From NCBI RefSeq assembly GCF_024707485.1, contig NZ_CP102602.1, positions 1,612,001 through 1,676,000 on the forward strand: a DNA stretch of 64,000 nt. The letters are read 5' to 3'. The first letter of the stretch is position 1. Every line of letters starts with the position of its first letter. Below are positions 5,155-16,775 of the stretch, in pieces. This stretch comes from Thermococcus thermotolerans (lineage in GTDB: Archaea; Methanobacteriota_B; Thermococci; Thermococcales; Thermococcaceae). The translations under genes and the position numbers were made by a program. The notes under the pieces are model-generated. The model was not told where the DNA came from. It did not search any database and saw nothing but the letters and a program-made list of their open reading frames with translations.

Positions 5155-5715
5155 TCAGTGCAAACCGAGGGTTTCAACTGCGGTTCTGTAATCCCTCCCC
5201 GAGTACAGCACGAGATAGACTTTCTCCACGCTCTTCGCTTCCTTCGAGAATTCCTCAACGACCCCCTTAAACGTCCTCACAACCTCCTCAAGCGGACAGC
5301 CGTAGATGCCGGCGCTTATGGCAGGGAAGGCTATGGTTTTGACACCGAGCTCGTCGGCCTTCCTCAGCGCTCCCATAATTGCTTTTCGGAGCCTCTCCTT
5401 CCTGTCCTCATCCCAGACGCCGCCGCAGTATGGCCCGACCGTGTGAATGACGTACTTGATTCCGTATTTTTCAAGCCTCATCGCCGGCGTTACAACGACC
5501 TCGCCGTGCTCGATGGAGTTCTTTCCGAGCTGCTCCCTCATGGCTCCCTTGCTTATCCTGATATACTCGCGGGCGTCTCCAGCGGCGGCCTTTGCTATCG
5601 CGTAGGCGACGCCACCTCCGTGTTCCAGATAGCGGTTCGCGGCGTTGACTATGGCCTCGGCCGGAAAGCGGGTTATGTCCCCACGGACAATCTCGAAGGA
5701 GACCACCGAACTCAC
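5155..5715 (-). CDS. Macro-domain protein (ADP-ribose binding / deacetylase type)
   Basis: 186 residues forming a single macro domain. Diagnostic motifs: EIVRGDITRFPAEAIVNAAN at the N-terminus (the Asp and Asn pair contacts ADP-ribose), GGGVAYAIAKAAG-type loop, VIHTVGPYCGG, and the phosphate loop FPAISAGIYGCP. Family members bind ADP-ribose and many hydrolyse O-acetyl-ADP-ribose or remove mono-ADP-ribose from proteins or nucleic acids. Full-length and intact. It follows the amidohydrolase gene at 5752-7026 on the same strand with a 36-bp gap. The substrate in this organism cannot be told from sequence. Confidence 0.9.
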   Translation of the reverse strand: MSSVVSFEIVRGDITRFPAEAIVNAANRYLEHGGGVAYAIAKAAAGDAREYIRISKGAMREQLGKNSIEHGEVVVTPAMRLEKYGIKYVIHTVGPYCGGVWDEDRKERLRKAIMGALRKADELGVKTIAFPAISAGIYGCPLEEVVRTFKGVVEEFSKEAKSVEKVYLVLYSGRDYRTAVETLGLH

Positions 5716-5751
5716 CAGGCAAATTTATGAAAGAGAAAATTTAACCCTAAC

Positions 5752-7026
5752 TCAGGCCAGCTTCTCTATCGTTTTTTCGGCATCTTCAATTATCTTCTCC
5801 TCGTCGAGCGTGAGGACCTCACGGTCGAGCATGAGGATTTTTCCGTCGACTATCGTAGTCTCAACGTCGTTTCCACTGGCCGAATAAACCAAGTGGCTTA
5901 TCACGTTGTTTATTGGCCTCAAGTGGGGCCGGTTGAAGTCAATGATTGCTATATCCGCCAGGTAGCCCTCCTTTATGACCCCGGCGTTGAGGCGCAAAGC
6001 CCTGGCCCCATTGAGGGTCGCCATCCTGAAGACCGTCTTAGCATCGGCAACCGTTGGATCGAGGTTGTGCACCTTGTGGAGGAGAGCGACCAGCTTCATC
6101 TCGTCGAGCATGTCGAGGTTGTTATTGCTGGCGGCGCCGTCGGTCCCAAGACCGACATTTACACCCGCGTTCAGGAGCCTCTGAAGGGGCATCACGCCGC
6201 TCGCGAGCTTCATGTTGCTCGCCGGATTATGGGCGACGGTGACACCGTGCCTCGCGAGTATCTGGATGTCCCTGCTGTCAAGCCAGACGCCGTGGGCGAT
6301 TATAACGTCGCTCCCAAAGAAGCCGATTTCATCGAGCAAAACCACGGGGCTCTTGCCATAGCGCTCGCTTATCTGGCCTATCTCGGCCATCGTCTCGCTC
6401 ACGTGGATGGTGATGAGCTTGCCGTGCTCGTTCGCGAGCCTCCTTACCTCCTTGAGGAGGGCTATGGAGCAGGTGTACGGTGCGTGCGGCCCGAAGACAA
6501 AGTGAACCCTGTCGGAGCCGAGCTTCTCGATAAACTCCATCACCCGGAGGGCCTCTTTGATCTCCTTCTCGGTTTTCTCGGGGTCGCCGAGGTCTATCAT
6601 GCCGTAGCTGAGGTACCCACGCAGGCCGGCTTCCTCCACAACCTCGGCAACGGCGTCCATGAAGAAGTACATGTCGAGAAACGTGCCGGTCCCGCTCTTT
6701 ATCATCTCCAGCGCACCTAGGTATGCCCCAACCTTGGTGTACTCCCTCGTAAGCTTTGCTTCCCTCGGCCATATGTGGTTCTGCAACCAGTCCATCAGCG
6801 GAAGGTCGTCAGCCAGGCCACGGAAGAGACCCATTGGTGAGTGGGTGTGGAGGTTTACGAAGGCCGGAGAGACAACGCGCCCCTTGGCGTCTATGACCGT
6901 GTCAGCGGGCTCTGTGATGTTTTTGGCCACCTTAACGATTCGATTTCCCTCAATGAGAACGTCACCCTCAACGACCTCAAAGCCCTCGCCGTAGATAACG
7001 CGGCCGTTTTTGATGAGAATGCTCAT
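5752..7026 (-). CDS. mtaD: 5-methylthioadenosine / S-adenosylhomocysteine deaminase (amidohydrolase)
   Basis: 424-residue amidohydrolase of the cytosine/adenosine deaminase group. It shows the metal-binding HTH motif (NLHTHSPMGLFRGLADDLPL), the FGPHAPYTC segment, IHVSET with a metal His, AHGVWLD, and the late Asp motif in GLGTDGAASNNNLDM. These are typical of MtaD, which deaminates MTA, SAH and related adenosines to inosine derivatives. ATG at 7026 (MSILIKNG) follows a GGTGGT site. A purine nucleoside phosphorylase of the MTA type lies about 2.6 kb away (9639-10412), so this window carries two steps of MTA salvage. Substrate preference is inferred. Confidence 0.88.
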   Translation of the reverse strand: MSILIKNGRVIYGEGFEVVEGDVLIEGNRIVKVAKNITEPADTVIDAKGRVVSPAFVNLHTHSPMGLFRGLADDLPLMDWLQNHIWPREAKLTREYTKVGAYLGALEMIKSGTGTFLDMYFFMDAVAEVVEEAGLRGYLSYGMIDLGDPEKTEKEIKEALRVMEFIEKLGSDRVHFVFGPHAPYTCSIALLKEVRRLANEHGKLITIHVSETMAEIGQISERYGKSPVVLLDEIGFFGSDVIIAHGVWLDSRDIQILARHGVTVAHNPASNMKLASGVMPLQRLLNAGVNVGLGTDGAASNNNLDMLDEMKLVALLHKVHNLDPTVADAKTVFRMATLNGARALRLNAGVIKEGYLADIAIIDFNRPHLRPINNVISHLVYSASGNDVETTIVDGKILMLDREVLTLDEEKIIEDAEKTIEKLA

Positions 7027-7721: not shown

Positions 7722-8231
7722 CTATTTTGTCACCTCAATCGTCTTGTACTCCACCACAATCGCCAGTCCGGCTTGTTTTATTGTGATTCTCTCCGGCAGT
7801 TTTCCGTTGAGTTCAACCTCGTAGGTTGGCATTCCTTCAGTCTTTGGTTTGAGAAGCAAGATGTCTCCCTCCCACGTGACGTTGAAGGACTCAAGGTTGG
7901 TGAGTATTGAAGCGAAGGGATCGAGGGCGTTAATGTCTTCCATGGTGGCGTTAAGGACAAACGTTCCGTTGGCGGTTATAATCTTCTGGATTCCGTTTTC
8001 TATGACGATTTTTTGAACCAAGGAACCGTTTATGTAATCCTTTCTAGTGATTTTGTCGGGCTTTGTAAAGGAAACATGACTCTCAAACGTCTGATTGCCG
8101 ATTTTTATTGTTTCGTGGGCCGTAAAGGAGGTGATGGAAGACCAGTAAGAGATCACATCTTCCTCCGAATATGTATGGAAAATACCTCCCAAAGCCAAGA
8201 CTGTCAATAATATCAGTACCCACCACTTCAT
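7722..8231 (-). CDS. Secreted LolA-like lipid-binding-fold protein, putative
   Basis: 169 residues; N-terminal hydrophobic signal (MKWWVLILLTVLALGGIFHT) without a lipobox Cys, then a beta-rich domain with repeated IKIGNQTFES, TRKDYINGSLVQKIVIENG and YEVELNGKLPERITIK strands. The pattern of an antiparallel sheet with a GxLPERIxI segment resembles LolA/DUF4292-type outer-membrane-lipoprotein-sorting folds that archaea use in secreted proteins. A similar architecture occurs in the lipoprotein at 50716-51579. It lies about 100 bp downstream of the membrane protein 8331-8702 on the same strand and could be the third gene of the halocin-like locus. Function unknown. Confidence 0.55.
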   Translation of the reverse strand: MKWWVLILLTVLALGGIFHTYSEEDVISYWSSITSFTAHETIKIGNQTFESHVSFTKPDKITRKDYINGSLVQKIVIENGIQKIITANGTFVLNATMEDINALDPFASILTNLESFNVTWEGDILLLKPKTEGMPTYEVELNGKLPERITIKQAGLAIVVEYKTIEVTK

Positions 8232-8330: not shown

Positions 8331-8702
8331 TTACGCTTCACCACCGATGAGAATTCGAGAATACCTCTCTAAAATTCTCCTATGCTCAAGATTCTTTTCA
8401 CGAGAAATAAAAAGAGCCATGATCCTTTTGCCCTCTTCTTTGTCAATATTCCGGGTTATATTTCTGTAGAGACTCCACAAGAGCCATAACTTCTGTTTTT
8501 TATAATGAATACTTCTCCGAATCAACAACAGGTAAACCATCAAGACAAGGGCAGATATCACAGCCGCCATTAAAGAACTTCCTTTAAAAGCGGAGAATAT
8601 AACTATAGTCATAACAAAAGATATAAAAAATTCATCTAAAACAATCCCCCAAAAAATATGTAAAAAGTAAGTTCGGTTGAAGAGTTTTTTTAGGGCCACC
8701 AT
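8331..8702 (-). CDS. Small membrane protein, candidate immunity/export partner of the halocin-like precursor
   Basis: 123 residues: two to three hydrophobic helices in the first 60 residues (IFWGIVLDEFFISFVMTIVI, SSLMAAVISALVLMVYLLLI), then a basic, charged cytoplasmic tail (RRSIHYKKQK, RNIDKEEGKR, EHRRILERYSR). The start lies only 9 bp after the stop of the cysteine-rich precursor at 8712-9470, so the two are almost surely co-transcribed. Bacteriocin genes are commonly followed by a small membrane immunity protein, which is the basis for the call; the family itself is not recognised. Confidence 0.55.
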   Translation of the reverse strand: MVALKKLFNRTYFLHIFWGIVLDEFFISFVMTIVIFSAFKGSSLMAAVISALVLMVYLLLIRRSIHYKKQKLWLLWSLYRNITRNIDKEEGKRIMALFISREKNLEHRRILERYSRILIGGEA

Positions 8703-8711
8703 AACACCCCC

Positions 8712-9470
8712 TCAACAATATCCTGCTTTTTTACATACTTCATGGGGGCTTATGTACTTGTTGTATTTTAAGTACTCAACTACAATTCCACTTACAACGC
8801 TACAAATCGGAAAGCATGTGGCAAGGCATGTTGCCACTGCACCCGGAATTGGAGTGGACATTAAACACACCGTGCCACACACCCCAGTACATGCAACAGT
8901 TCCTCCTAGCTTTATCACAGCATCGGCCACATATTCACAAATGAAACATTTCAAAGATCCCCAAAATCCCAGCGGACGAATCTCCTTATGAATATTTCCA
9001 TTAATATCCACAGTATAAACTTCTATTTCATGAGATCCTAGCACATATCTGCCCAGTGCCAACGCAGAGCCATATTTGTTCTGGACATAAACCAGTTGCC
9101 CCACACTAGTGGATCCAACCAGCGGCACCTTAACTATTTCTGTCGTTGTTCCGTTGTACTCCACTATCAAAACGGTAGCTTTTTCGTACACTGGCACAAG
9201 GTTTTGATCCCGCAGGTGCTCCCTCAGCATTATTGAATCTTTAGTATTGAAAGCCCTTAGGGCCATTAGATACGTCGTCGGCCCCCTAAGTTCCTGCACC
9301 CGGAGATCCTTCGGTAGGCTCACGTTCCCTGAACAACAAGGACATTTTAGAGTAGTGGGAACATTCGGAGTTGACTTTGGCACAACATCAGACGCCGCCA
9401 TGGCAGAGCTAGCTGTTAGGCCAAGGATGAGGAACACAACCATTACAGTCAGGAACCGCTTCACGGGCAT
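8712..9470 (-). CDS. Halocin-C8-like bacteriocin precursor (secreted, 10-Cys C-terminal domain)
   Basis: About 252 residues. Signal peptide MPVKRFLTVMVVFLILGLTA then SSAMA; pro-region of about 140 residues with a CPCC motif near its start; then a C-terminal domain of about 85 residues (residues 168-252, DNA about 8715-8969) holding exactly ten cysteines. It starts with CFIC, has two C-x3-C-x3-C ladders (CTGVCGTVC and CLATCFPIC), and ends EVCKKAGYC. Halocin C8 as I remember it also has ten Cys, opens with C-x2-C and ends EACNRAGLC, and is cleaved from the C-terminus of a precursor whose N-terminal part gives immunity. An A/T-rich TATA box (about 9498-9510) precedes the gene. ATG 9476 is an alternative start. 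Confidence 0.75.
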   Translation of the reverse strand: MPVKRFLTVMVVFLILGLTASSAMAASDVVPKSTPNVPTTLKCPCCSGNVSLPKDLRVQELRGPTTYLMALRAFNTKDSIMLREHLRDQNLVPVYEKATVLIVEYNGTTTEIVKVPLVGSTSVGQLVYVQNKYGSALALGRYVLGSHEIEVYTVDINGNIHKEIRPLGFWGSLKCFICEYVADAVIKLGGTVACTGVCGTVCLMSTPIPGAVATCLATCFPICSVVSGIVVEYLKYNKYISPHEVCKKAGYC

Positions 9471-9638
9471 CACCATTATTGATGAAGCAAAAGTCATATT
9501 TAAATTTTACGCTTTACCATAGTATTATCTTTTTTTCCAATACGTCACAAAAGAGACTGTCTAAGGAGTATCAAACCAACCACGCGTCATATTAAAAACG
9601 TAGAAAAGAAAAACAATCCCAAAAAGTAATTATAAAAA

Positions 9639-10502: not shown

Positions 10503-10886
10503 TCACCCACCCATCGTTATCACCGGTCTTAAGTAAAAATTAAGAGCAGTCAACAGCAGTAGAGACCCGTACCAGAGGACAACCCAGGGCAGAAAGACAA
10601 GTGCTGTGTGAACGTAAACACCACCTAAGAAAACGCTTGGGAATTCAAGGGGAAGGGCAATTGCCACGTAGGTGGTTAAGAGGGACTTTAACGGCAGACG
10701 ATCACCAGCAACACCCATCAGAAGCTCCCACGCGGCCACAAAGACTATGTACCCCCACCACGCAACGGCGGATAGTTTTTCAAAAATCCAAAAGTTGTAC
10801 ATAACCGTTAGAAAGAGCGGATAAGCAAAAGCAAAAACCCTTAGAAAAAGCCTCAAAGATATGAGGAAACGAAGGGAGTACCTCAT
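10503..10886 (-). CDS. Small four-helix membrane protein, partner of secreted protein 10893-11846
   Basis: 127 residues, about four hydrophobic helices, short basic N-terminus (MRYSLRFLISLRLFLRVFAF). It begins 6 bp after the stop of the secreted-protein gene 10893-11846, so the two form an operon. It is a paralogue of the protein at 4369-4806, sharing the helix pattern and an LEFPSV/FEFPAV motif in the third helix. Small membrane proteins directly downstream of secreted proteins recur in this window (8331-8702, 49005-49301), which suggests immunity or dedicated export, but no experiment or family assignment supports a specific role. Confidence 0.6.
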   Translation of the reverse strand: MRYSLRFLISLRLFLRVFAFAYPLFLTVMYNFWIFEKLSAVAWWGYIVFVAAWELLMGVAGDRLPLKSLLTTYVAIALPLEFPSVFLGGVYVHTALVFLPWVVLWYGSLLLLTALNFYLRPVITMGG

Positions 10887-10892
10887 ATCCCA

Positions 10893-11846
10893 CTACCTCC
10901 ACGAATAATAGTGCCAGATCTTGGCCATATCCGGGCTAGTATCTACAGTATTCATGAGGTGGTTCCAGGTGTTGCTAACGTAAACTTCAACGGAAGAAGA
11001 AGAATACAACTTAATTCCATAACCATGGGTGGGTGCTGGCGTTGCGTATGTCTGACTTATCTCATGACAAATTAAATATCCACATTCTGTATAGGTACTA
11101 GATGTCGTTGGGAAGATTATTGAGCCATCTTTGACTTCGATGCTTTCTATGTCTTCACATCCATAAGTATCATCTCTCCCAGGATATAAAATATGACATC
11201 GTGTCCAGTCATACACAGCATTAAGTGAAGGGTCCGGGTGGTCCTCATCGTAGAAATGAAGTTCATACTTTACACTCGTTGAGTCATAATAGACAACTAT
11301 TTTAAAGAGGTCATTATGGCCATCTACGTTGTATTGGTATCCCTTGCTGTCAGTTCCCGTTCCTCCGTTAATATCAACCTTAACTTGAACCCACCAATGG
11401 ATTGGGTAGGGGATTGAAGAGCTCATCGGAGCATAGTAATAGTCATAGACTTTGCCGTTAGTCTTAACTGAGGCAACTTTAATGGGCTTCACGACTAATA
11501 CCTTGGCGTTCTTGGGGTAAAAGCTCCTCTGGTAGAGGTAGGAGACGTAATCGCTTACCAGTAACCGCTTAAGGGTTTCCCTCTGCTCAGGTGCGAGGTT
11601 TTTAGCATGTTCAGCAATCTCAGCATCAAGCTGTCTGTCAAATCTCTTCAAAACGAGGTTGGTGAGCCTGTTCACAAAATGCGGGTCGTTGATAGTTCCT
11701 TTGGTATGTGCAATATCAATCTGCTCCATAACAAAGAGATCAATAACCGTCCAGCTGTCCACGTCAGCCTGAGGTCGTGCACTAACAAACCCTGAAAAAA
11801 CAAAAACAAACATCAGAACTCCGGCCAAGAGTCTTATCCATTTCAA
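10893..11846 (-). CDS. Large secreted protein of unknown function with small membrane partner
   Basis: About 317 residues. Signal peptide MKWIRLLAGVLMFVFVFSGF then VSA; a helical region (about 30-100) rich in charged residues; then a beta-rich C-terminal region with a Gly-rich strand (NGGTGTDSKG) and four cysteines in two pairs (RCHILYPGRDDTYGCEDIE and ECGYLICHE), probably disulfides. TTG at 11846 is preferred because GGTGAT lies 4 nt upstream and gives a signal peptide like the paralogous MKWRPLM start at 2060; ATG at 11858 is the alternative. A strong TATA box (TATATATAAT, 11878-11888 on the plus strand) lies upstream. Base composition is AT-richer than its housekeeping neighbours. No family recognised. 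Confidence 0.6.
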   Translation of the reverse strand: MKWIRLLAGVLMFVFVFSGFVSARPQADVDSWTVIDLFVMEQIDIAHTKGTINDPHFVNRLTNLVLKRFDRQLDAEIAEHAKNLAPEQRETLKRLLVSDYVSYLYQRSFYPKNAKVLVVKPIKVASVKTNGKVYDYYYAPMSSSIPYPIHWWVQVKVDINGGTGTDSKGYQYNVDGHNDLFKIVVYYDSTSVKYELHFYDEDHPDPSLNAVYDWTRCHILYPGRDDTYGCEDIESIEVKDGSIIFPTTSSTYTECGYLICHEISQTYATPAPTHGYGIKLYSSSSVEVYVSNTWNHLMNTVDTSPDMAKIWHYYSWR

Positions 11847-12174
11847 AGATATCACCATTAGGTGTTGGGTGTTAGACGTATATATAATTTTCTATTAGTA
11901 ATGGTTTAGAACATAAAACTTGAAAATAGAAATATGGGCATTTTAAGAAATTTTTAATACTCTCTCCTAATATCCCTTCTGCTATGTTACAGGACAAATC
12001 AGCTCAACGTTGCATCCTGTCCAAACCCATTTACCCCACATTGAATCCCCTTGAAGGGTTTAATGACTTTCCGGGACAGGTAACATCGACTTTAGTTCAA
12101 ACAATCTCTCTGGAAATGAAAGAATCCGAAAATTTAATAACCTTTTGGAACTAAATTTCTCCGGGGGTGGTACC
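11847..12174. other. Divergent intergenic region with possible structured RNA
   Basis: About 330 bp between two divergent genes. It holds the TATA box of the leftward secreted-protein gene (11878-11888), a second TATA-like sequence reading rightward (TTTTTAATA, about 11950-11958), a set of nested inverted repeats at 11984-12086 described separately, and the AATTTAATAA promoter (about 12131-12140) of the PAC2-family gene. No protein-coding frame of substance was seen. Confidence 0.6.
11982..12090 (+). ncRNA. Candidate structured RNA or attenuator (nested inverted repeats)
   Basis: Outer arms ATGTTAC (11984-11990) and GTAACAT (12080-12086) enclose CCTGTCC (12016-12022) with GGACAGG (12074-12080) and AAACCC (12023-12028) with GGGTTT (12056-12061). 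In addition ACAGGA at about 11989-11994 can pair with TCCTGT at 12015-12020, so two mutually exclusive folds are possible. A TATA-like sequence about 25-30 nt before 11982 would start a transcript right at the structure. No known family was recognised; it could be a small RNA or a leader element. The downstream gene has its own promoter, which favours a separate small RNA. Confidence 0.35.
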
Positions 12175-14077: not shown

Positions 14078-16588
14078 TCAGTCCTCAACGCCCCTGTCGG
14101 TTATCCTGAAGATCGCCTCCCCCTCGGGAAGGTGCGGGCTGTCTATGAGCCTGGCGACGCGCTTCCCGGCCTTACCCTTCCTGAGGTATATCCTAAGCGT
14201 GGCGCTGTGGGCAAGGATGTGACCACCAACGGGCCTCGTCGGGTCGCCGAAGAACGCATCGGGCTTGGCCTGAACCTGGTTGGTGACGAAGACTGCTATA
14301 TCGTAGAGGTCAGCAATGCGGTGAAGGTCTGCGAGATGTTTCGCCAGCTTCTGCTGTCTCTCCGCCAGAGTCCCCCTGCCGACGTACTCGCTCCTGAAGT
14401 GGGCCATGAGAGAATCAACGACGAGGAGCTTTACAGGTCTGTCTGTCTCCGCTTTCTCCTTGATTATCTCCTCCGCCTTCTCGATGAGGAGCATCTGGTG
14501 GTTGCTGTTGAAGGCCCTGGCCACGTAGATGTTCTTGAGGGTCTCGTCCGGATCGAGACCTCGGTTCTCGGCGATCTGCCTTATTCTCTCGGGCCTGAAG
14601 GTGTTCTCGGTGTCTATCCATATGACCGAACCGTGGAGGCCGCCCTCCTCCTCGGGGAGCTGAACCATCACCGCGAGAGTGTGAGCCAGCTGAGTGTTAT
14701 GGAGGACGAGGCCGTTCGGCGCTATGAAGTTGTGGGTCTCTGGGACAACTAGGTCGTAGACCCAGTCGTTGTACTCAACAAGCTCAACGGACTTTACCTC
14801 ATAGAATTCCAGTTTTTTAAGGAACTCAATGAATTCAATGGCTTTTCTGGCAATCTTCTCGTGCTCTTCAATCTCACGCAGGAGAGCCGAGATTACTCTG
14901 CCCCTAAGGGGTTCGCGCTTTGGAAGTCCCCTGGCACGGTAGTTTGAAATCTGCCTATCGGTAAAGCCATACTTCCTGAGAACCGTCCACGGGAACGGAA
15001 GCTCTGGTTTCTCCCCGTTTTCAATTGCTTTCTTTGTGAGTTCAAGCCTGTTGAGGGCATCCCTGAAGTAGTCAGAGATTCTTTCGAGAGTCCTCTCGGT
15101 GAACCAGACGTTCTTACTGCGTGTCAGGATGTGGTATGCAGTTTCACCATCCCTCTTTGGCAGTCTGAATTCAGAGTAAAGGGCAGAGAGGTACCTGGCC
15201 ACTGCTGGAGGATAACGACCAACGCCGCGGCCAGGTAGCTTCGAGTTCTTGAGGATGGAAACCCCAAGAACCGAGCTGAAGGAAGCCCTGTCCTCACCAG
15301 TTATGAAAATCCTGTAGTAAGTTTCTCGGTTTATGACCTTCTCGGAGACCGTTGGGGAAATCCCGAGGCGCTTCAGCAGGAAGACGATACCATCAGCCAG
15401 GTTCCTGCTCTTGGTGACGAACTCAATGTGGGACTCGGCAACGTGGCCATCACCGTCGAGGTAACCGGCGAGGAAGCTTACTATCGTGTCCTCATCACCG
15501 TTGAGTATTTCCTCCGGAACGACCTTGCTTTGAGCGTTCGAAGCTGAGAGCCCTCCAAGCCACTCCGCAGTTTTCTTGCGGAGGAGTATCCTGTAGAGAC
15601 CGCGCCTAACTTCAACCTTTGGCTCATAGCCGTCATGGCGCTTAATGAACTCAACGATGAAATCCCTGAGTTGTTCAGAGGATGTGGTTATTGAGAGCGG
15701 ATTCGATGTCCCTTCCGCAACGAAGAGACCGAGGAAATAGGCCATTTCATCGGACAAGTGTGTAGAATTTGCGGGAACCTTGCGAACGCCAACAATCACA
15801 TCGCCTTCCCTGAGCTCCCCCGCGCGAACCCACTGAAGGCCGTTTCTGAAGACAAGAACAGGGTGAACTGCGGTTATCCTGAGCTTCCGTCCCCGAGAGA
15901 GGTTAAGCTGAAGTATCTTTCTGACCCACTCGCGGTACAGATAAGATGCCTTAGTGCGCTTTATTTCTCCGGTCGCAGGATCAAAGGTGTAGACGCTGAC
16001 TGTTTCCAGTGGAACCGCAAAGCCAGTATCAAAGGGAACTTCCCTCCCTAAAGCCCTGTACTTCTCGTACATCTCCTCTATAGTCTCAAAGTGAACGAGA
16101 GTATCGTTTTCGTAGTAAACTTTCGTATCCTTGGCAAAGCACTTCCCGCTTCCGAACTCTCCGAAGACCTCGGTTATGGCCTGGGTCTCGACTCCACCGC
16201 CGACGAGCTTATCGAGGCTCTTGCTTCCAGTGGAAATCCTGCCTATGGTTCTGCGCTTCTCCATGTACTCGTCCGCCCGCATGAAGGTTCCTATGTTTGC
16301 CGCTTCCCTGGCGGCCTGGATTATCTTGAGAGCAGCACCCTCACTTATGCCAGCTATCTCCTTGAGCTCCATAGGGGATGCAACGGCTATGGCCTCAATG
16401 CTGTCGTAGCCGGCCTCGCGGAGCTTCTCGGCAGTGGCTGGCCCAACACCCGGGAGGTCTTCAAGGGTCTTTATTTCTTTCTCCTTCTTTTTCTTAGTTG
16501 AGCTTGATGGGGACTCCGTAACGACATCGAGCTCCTCAAACTCTTCGAGCTCTTTTATTTCATCGTCAGCCTTCTTCTTCCGTGGCAT
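14078..16588 (-). CDS. radA: DNA repair and recombination protein RadA, with an intein
   Basis: 836-residue precursor; about 354 residues after splicing. Extein: N-terminal helix-hairpin-helix domain ([20 protein letters not shown]), the RadA core with Walker A (GEFGSGKT), Walker B-like [12 protein letters not shown]2-type loop and the [13 protein letters not shown] polymerisation/interaction segment. RadA is the archaeal Rad51/RecA strand-exchange recombinase. The intein (DNA 14696-16141) interrupts the Walker A motif between Lys and Thr. ATG at 16588 is preferred over GTG 16597 because of GGTGAG spacing. It is followed by nucS. An origin-box core (16224-16237) encodes part of the conserved RISTGS segment. 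Confidence 0.95.
14696..16141 (-). mobile_element. RadA intein with LAGLIDADG homing endonuclease
   Basis: 482 residues, from Cys ([10 protein letters not shown], block A) to the His-Asn end (VLHN) with Thr as the first C-extein residue; splicing would restore GSGKT of the P-loop. Block B is seen in the TAVHPVLVF segment; block F/G in [16 protein letters not shown]. Two LAGLIDADG motifs ([10 protein letters not shown] and [10 protein letters not shown]) keep their acidic residues, so the homing endonuclease may be active. Sequence is in frame with no stops. Insertion at the P-loop of RadA is a known hotspot because the site is highly conserved. Confidence 0.92.
16002..16015. repeat. Origin recognition box core inside the RadA intein
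   Basis: Exact 11-bp core TTCCAGTGGAA within the intein coding sequence, with a flanking G/C matching the box consensus. About 1.9 kb from the origin repeats. Confidence 0.5.
16224..16237. repeat. Origin recognition box core inside radA
   Basis: Exact core TTCCAGTGGAA. It codes (on the minus strand) the conserved peptide ISTG of RadA, so it might be coincidental coding, but it adds to a local excess of this motif. Confidence 0.4.
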
Positions 16589-16775
16589 CTCACTCACCCT
16601 CTACACCTACCTTTCATAGGGGTAAAAAGCCGAAGGGTTATATACTTTTCTTTCCGATGGGGAGGTGGATGAAACTGCCAGGTATTAAGAAATATCACAA
16701 ATCCCTGCTTCCGAAAAACTGTTCTGCGCTGAAACAGGGCATGTGACCAGATACAAAGGGAATAAAGCAACACCA

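Follow-up and report, generated by a model that had tools for sequence, protein, structure and literature searches.

A halocin C8-like peptide locus of Thermococcus thermotolerans as a probable allele of a polymorphic bacteriocin system in Thermococcaceae

Most of the peptide antibiotics known in archaea come from haloarchaea and Sulfolobales. Makarova et al. (2019) reportedly expanded the halocin C8 family in archaea, and their families may overlap with those considered here. In the halocin C8 system, one gene yields both the toxin and the immunity protein HalI (review PMC11509114), and the active C-terminal fragment is released by a protease that remains unidentified (PMC12893001). The same archaeal group as studied here possesses the VARTIG module (PMC8416519), in which, as in the system described below, a hypervariable secreted protein is followed by varying membrane protein genes; the window system, unlike VARTIG, has no Ig domains and no large surface protein, and what varies in it is a halocin-like peptide rich in Cys. 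The main text of the VARTIG paper does not mention halocin (PMC8416519).

We analyzed a 64,000-nt stretch of the T. thermotolerans genome (the window; contig NZ_CP102602.1, positions 1,612,001 to 1,676,000). One of its loci probably encodes a peptide bacteriocin (archaeocin) with its immunity protein and represents a single allele within a polymorphic bacteriocin system of the Thermococcaceae in which cassettes are swapped. The first-pass annotation of this DNA had proposed a halocin-C8-like precursor with a membrane partner; this reading is supported but incomplete, as the modular system to which the locus belongs is much larger.

The precursor gene and its likeness to halocin C8

The locus comprises the following features, all on the minus strand:

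9496..9515, minus: BRE/TATA archaeal promoter-like element AAAGCGTAAAATTTAAATAT, largely conserved, at the same distance to the start, in most aligned carrier-A loci of other genomes
8712..9464, minus: precursor gene (signal, carrier A pro-region and Cys-rich domain), from the sequence and homologues
9393..9464, minus: Sec-type signal peptide VKRFLTVMVVFLILGLTASSAMAA, read from the sequence; predicted helix 3-25, boundary inferred
8958..9392, minus: carrier A pro-region, from alignments of relatives and an AlphaFold model
8715..8957, minus: halocin C8-like Cys-rich domain, the presumed mature toxin, from TIGR04449, hhalign against shuffles, the model and composition
8331..8702, minus: membrane protein of 123 aa that has two hydrophobic segments and a C-terminal tail of charged residues, the presumed cognate immunity protein, with homologues at four places

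Read from its ATG, the precursor gene extends from 9470 to 8712 and encodes 252 aa; a GTG start at 9464, two codons downstream, gives 250 aa. We placed the start at the GTG because the upstream DNA is conserved and the ATG is lost in one relative. A ribosome-binding-like GGTGAT and a BRE/TATA-like element AAAGCGTAAAATTTAAATATGA precede the gene and are kept in related loci. Homologues of the precursor are present in other Thermococcaceae genomes. The hydrophobic N-terminal signal and the 9 nt between the precursor stop and the start of the membrane protein gene were found as originally annotated. The signal VKRFLTVMVVFLILGL contains no twin-arginine (RR) motif, and in this respect the Tat signal of HalC8 is not matched.

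The Cys-rich domain (residues 172-252, 81 aa, pI ~8) contains ten Cys, at residues 175, 178, 194, 198, 202, 215, 219, 223, 246 and 252, the maximum per 81-residue stretch in the window when open frames of at least 100 codons are compared. These positions agree exactly with the claimed CFIC start, two C-x3-C-x3-C ladders and EVCKKAGYC end of a secreted precursor. Three more Cys (residues 43, 45 and 46), absent from the first-pass annotation, are in the pro-region, the first part of which is conserved across species and the remainder variable in alignments. The fold of carrier A is predicted to be a helical hairpin followed by a beta meander, and AlphaFold places four helices in the Cys-rich domain of both the window precursor and its same-genome paralogue, with moderate confidence. 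In PDB fold searches neither model had a match with E below 0.001. Pfam assigned no family to the precursor, its membrane partner, carrier B (a second pro-region, see below) or the other C-termini, and neither Pfam nor NCBIfam contains a family for the carrier A pro-region or reveals an enzymatic domain in the precursors (about 250-370 aa).

The proposed relationship to halocin C8 was supported by several comparisons: (i) the NCBIfam model TIGR04449 (halocin C8-like) aligns over its full length (1-69) with precursor residues 175-252 (hmmscan, 20.2 bits, E 9e-4), a borderline score given the curated cut-off of 24 bits; (ii) in a genome search for this model the window domain scores 23.3 bits, or 24.1 with neighbours, just over the cut-off, and in a separate scan the corresponding domain in the same-genome paralogue reaches 41.9 bits; and (iii) hhalign of 13 Thermococcus domains against four haloarchaeal ones yields a score of 21.45 (E 4e-4), above the maximum of 12.99 among 60 Cys-preserving shuffles. 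The outcome that would have refuted the proposal, absence of any significant match, did not occur. The identity of the halocin C8 query peptide is backed by its own TIGR04449 score of 61.5 bits and by haloarchaeal relatives that are encoded on plasmids and carry a halocin C8-like annotation. Further Thermococcus proteins score clearly above the TIGR04449 cut-off; the recognition of halocin-like domains in Thermococcus by the NCBIfam model is already known.

Short Cys-rich domains look alike, and the likeness might reflect no more than a shared Cys-rich, hydrophobic composition, the domain being that of an unrelated disulfide protein, e.g. one for redox or metal handling. The borderline score of the window copy fits such an explanation, as does the hhalign probability of only 14% despite the low E-value. 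Nevertheless, we consider it very unlikely, since relatives, at 42-48 bits, lie far above the curated cut-off, the score lies above all Cys-preserving shuffles, and the cassette and immunity organisation described below is independent of any halocin resemblance. Assignment of the window domain to the halocin C8-like peptides is well supported at the level of sequence, and its activity is inferred only.

The window precursor and the halocin C8 family (HalC8/ProC8) share a C-terminal domain of ~76-81 residues with ten Cys, a C-x2-C start and a C...C tail of the EACNRAGLC type; in both, the precursor is secreted and its pro-region is long. Unlike halocin C8, the window precursor has a Sec-like rather than a Tat signal, and the Thermococcaceae system has a separate downstream membrane gene as its probable immunity determinant, many exchangeable toxin types per carrier, and a hyperthermophilic rather than a halophilic host. 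Two haloarchaeal halocin C8-like genes are followed by a small 68-aa ORF (L143, 5304-5510; L144, 3299-3505), which in L143 is hydrophobic and about 20 nt downstream; this ORF might encode immunity separately, in addition to the HalI already published.

Several neighbours of the locus were also recorded. A lipoprotein-like gene with the motif SFTAHETIKIGNQTFES (7722-8231, minus strand) has counterparts directly after nearly all carrier-A toxin/immunity pairs elsewhere; it belongs to no Pfam family and is either a system component or a conserved neighbour. At 10503-11858 (minus strand), a gene for a secreted 321-aa protein is separated by 6 nt from that for a 127-aa membrane protein, neither with a convincing family; the two are possibly another secreted effector and membrane partner. 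A RadA-like recombinase gene of 839 aa, apparently interrupted by an intein, is located at 14078-16597 (minus strand).

Carriers and toxin types in Thermococcaceae

To describe the distribution of the precursors, 94 Thermococcaceae genomes were searched with the pro-regions. Carrier A was found at 12 clear loci, the weaker matches being signal peptides only, and carrier B in 29 of the 94 genomes. A search of genome contigs additionally confirmed carrier B in two Thermococcus MAGs and gave no confirmed relative for the window precursor. No precursor relatives were found on plasmids, and no carrier B relatives in viral contigs. Homology between carriers A and B is unsupported, and their pro-regions have no detectable similarity.

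The C-termini attached to the two carriers fall into 16 types at the threshold used. Types were defined by normalised scores and depend on the threshold; these scores replaced BLAST single-linkage clustering, in which Cys content merged the types. Carrier A bears several types. In carrier B, the median normalised similarity is 0.70 in the pro-region versus 0.11 in the C-termini, and conservation, high up to residue ~230, drops sharply near residue 231. Of ten carrier-B precursors compared with described families, only two had a fitting match, in both cases TIGR04449 (one over and one under the cut-off).

Toxins and carriers have been shuffled: for 18 of the 34 precursors on carrier B, the most similar pro-region is joined to a toxin of another type. 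For example, precursors L035 and L034 share 93% of the toxin and 72% of the carrier, whereas the nearest carrier to that of L035 (86%) bears a different toxin. T. thermotolerans itself contains a carrier-B precursor with the window toxin type and the partner family that accompanies it, and, elsewhere in the genome, a second carrier-B precursor with another toxin type.

The membrane partner, orphan cassettes and immunity arrays

Homologues of the window partner occur at only four places in the 94 genomes: beside the window toxin, beside its orthologue in genome G061, beside the same-type toxin on carrier B in its own genome (34% identity to the window partner over 79 aa), and alone in G097. Three of the four directly follow the same toxin type; the one in G097 is a toxin-less gene in the array of another toxin, downstream of which it sits. 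Across 54 precursors, the first downstream membrane protein tracks the C-terminal toxin type (Mantel r = 0.86, p = 5e-4) and not the carrier (r 0.17-0.21; the partial r is 0.085 for carrier B and -0.05 for all). This co-inheritance strongly supports, without demonstrating, toxin-specific immunity, and protection itself is inferred from it. Some similar toxins nevertheless have dissimilar partners (44 of 103 pairs with the thresholds applied, for the most part subtypes of a single type); since partners differ within some toxin types, either specificity operates between subtypes, as appears to be the case, or the pairing is blurred by tandem genes.

The membrane protein could instead be a dedicated maturation or export factor, with immunity residing in the pro-region as published for HalI. 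The single halocin C8 gene that provides both functions (PMC11509114) is a precedent, and the carrier pro-region, which includes a predicted helical hairpin, is large enough. A processing factor, however, should track the carrier, and the partner tracks the toxin type. Moreover, carrier B is conserved while its toxins vary and can therefore hardly confer type-specific immunity. Neither carrier has detectable similarity to haloarchaeal pro-regions, and homology with them is unsupported: hhalign of carrier A against the pro-regions of haloarchaeal halocin C8-like proteins (that of HalC8 itself not among them) gave E 0.8, below shuffles, and a pro-region of the HalI type was not recovered. We regard a maturation role as very unlikely.

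Under the immunity reading of the partner, the same-genome carrier-B locus L027 (genome positions 1418000-1432000) can be described as the following series: (i) the precursor bearing the window-type toxin and its partner, (ii) a 164-aa ORF without a signal, in which the end of carrier B is repeated and joined to another toxin, followed by the partner of that toxin, and (iii) a 53-aa toxin-tail remnant and a partner gene that has lost its toxin. The carrier segments of the precursor and of the 164-aa ORF are 93% identical and constitute a direct repeat of 299 nt; recombination between the copies is inferred to be able to swap the expressed toxin. Signal-less cassettes beginning at the same carrier residue were also found in other genomes, whereas no silent cassette is present at the window locus. 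What looks like a VapBC toxin-antitoxin pair lies between orphan immunity-like genes of L027 (8746-9183, minus strand), upstream of its carrier-B precursor.

By our count, immunity-like genes without a toxin are present in about 19 loci. This count leaves out the 'T15' immunity label, which arose artefactually from a gene in which a membrane segment is fused to the lipoprotein conserved next door. At the carrier-A locus L141 of genome G064 (5491-6565, minus strand), only a signal/carrier remnant is left, the toxin has decayed, and two immunity-like genes of different types remain; this is apparently an immune non-producer.

Variable ends with co-varying membrane partners would also fit recognition pairs. 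The Cys-rich end could be displayed for surface recognition or adhesion in kin discrimination, with the membrane protein as its anchor or receptor and diversity serving self/non-self distinction or virus escape, with no killing; such roles have been proposed for VARTIG, the hypervariable Ig-domain module of Thermococcales (PMC8416519). This remains conceivable but unlikely: the Cys-rich domain has a relative among known antimicrobial peptides; partnerless membrane genes are kept beside other toxins, and at L141 beside a decayed one, as immunity predicts; and Pfam scans found no anchor, Ig or adhesion domain, the best Ig match in the precursors being weak and not significant (E 0.1).

Proposed mechanism and relation to polymorphic toxins

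For the favoured reading as a bacteriocin with its immunity protein, we propose the following sequence of events. The precursor would be exported by the Sec route, the Cys-rich C-terminus would gain its disulfides and fold outside the cell, and a protease would free a peptide of ~81 residues, as for halocin C8; cut before Ser172 and with five disulfides, this peptide has a calculated mass near 8466 Da, which would shift by about 10 Da on reduction. No dedicated processing protease or exporter adjoins the toxin/partner pair; the genome contains three subtilisin-like protease genes, none linked to the locus. The freed peptide may then attack the membrane of related archaea, while the membrane protein encoded 9 nt downstream would shield the producer from its own peptide type. 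These steps are inferred, the last with strong support. Movement of the toxin and immunity module between species on conserved carriers, with old cassettes and immunity genes left as orphans, is established by comparison of the genomes, as are the gene arrangement, the domain similarity and the toxin/partner linkage. Four observations count against the bacteriocin reading, namely the window copy below the hmmscan cut-off, the lack of a silent cassette at its locus, the dissimilar partners in 44 of 103 pairs, and the lack of a dedicated protease or exporter beside the toxin/partner pair.

We further consider it reasonably probable that two unrelated carriers draw on a pool of ~16 disulfide-rich toxin types, mostly outside described families, with matching membrane immunity, and that silent cassettes and immunity arrays let a strain switch its weapon by homologous recombination. 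This arrangement resembles polymorphic toxin systems, e.g. bacterial contact-dependent inhibition, in (i) a constant N-terminal carrier with a variable C-terminal toxin, seen for both carriers, (ii) an immunity gene directly downstream and tied to the toxin type, protection being inferred, and (iii) displaced toxin/immunity cassettes that share carrier sequence, together with immunity arrays, as seen in L027 and other genomes and not at the window locus. It differs in its small precursors and disulfide-rich peptides, where those systems have large proteins whose toxins are nucleases or other enzymes, in its membrane-type immunity proteins, and in that no dedicated secretion apparatus was seen. 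No description of the swapping system was found in the literature searched, which is not proof that none exists.

Hyperthermophiles appear to possess many disulfide-rich peptides, presumably very stable to heat, together with immunity proteins, as a large repertoire that is rapidly exchanged. If this is true, the warhead swapping of polymorphic toxins would extend to small peptides in archaea, and the loci described here would provide many undescribed peptide families and concrete toxin/immunity pairs for the cultivable, partly genetically tractable Thermococcus.
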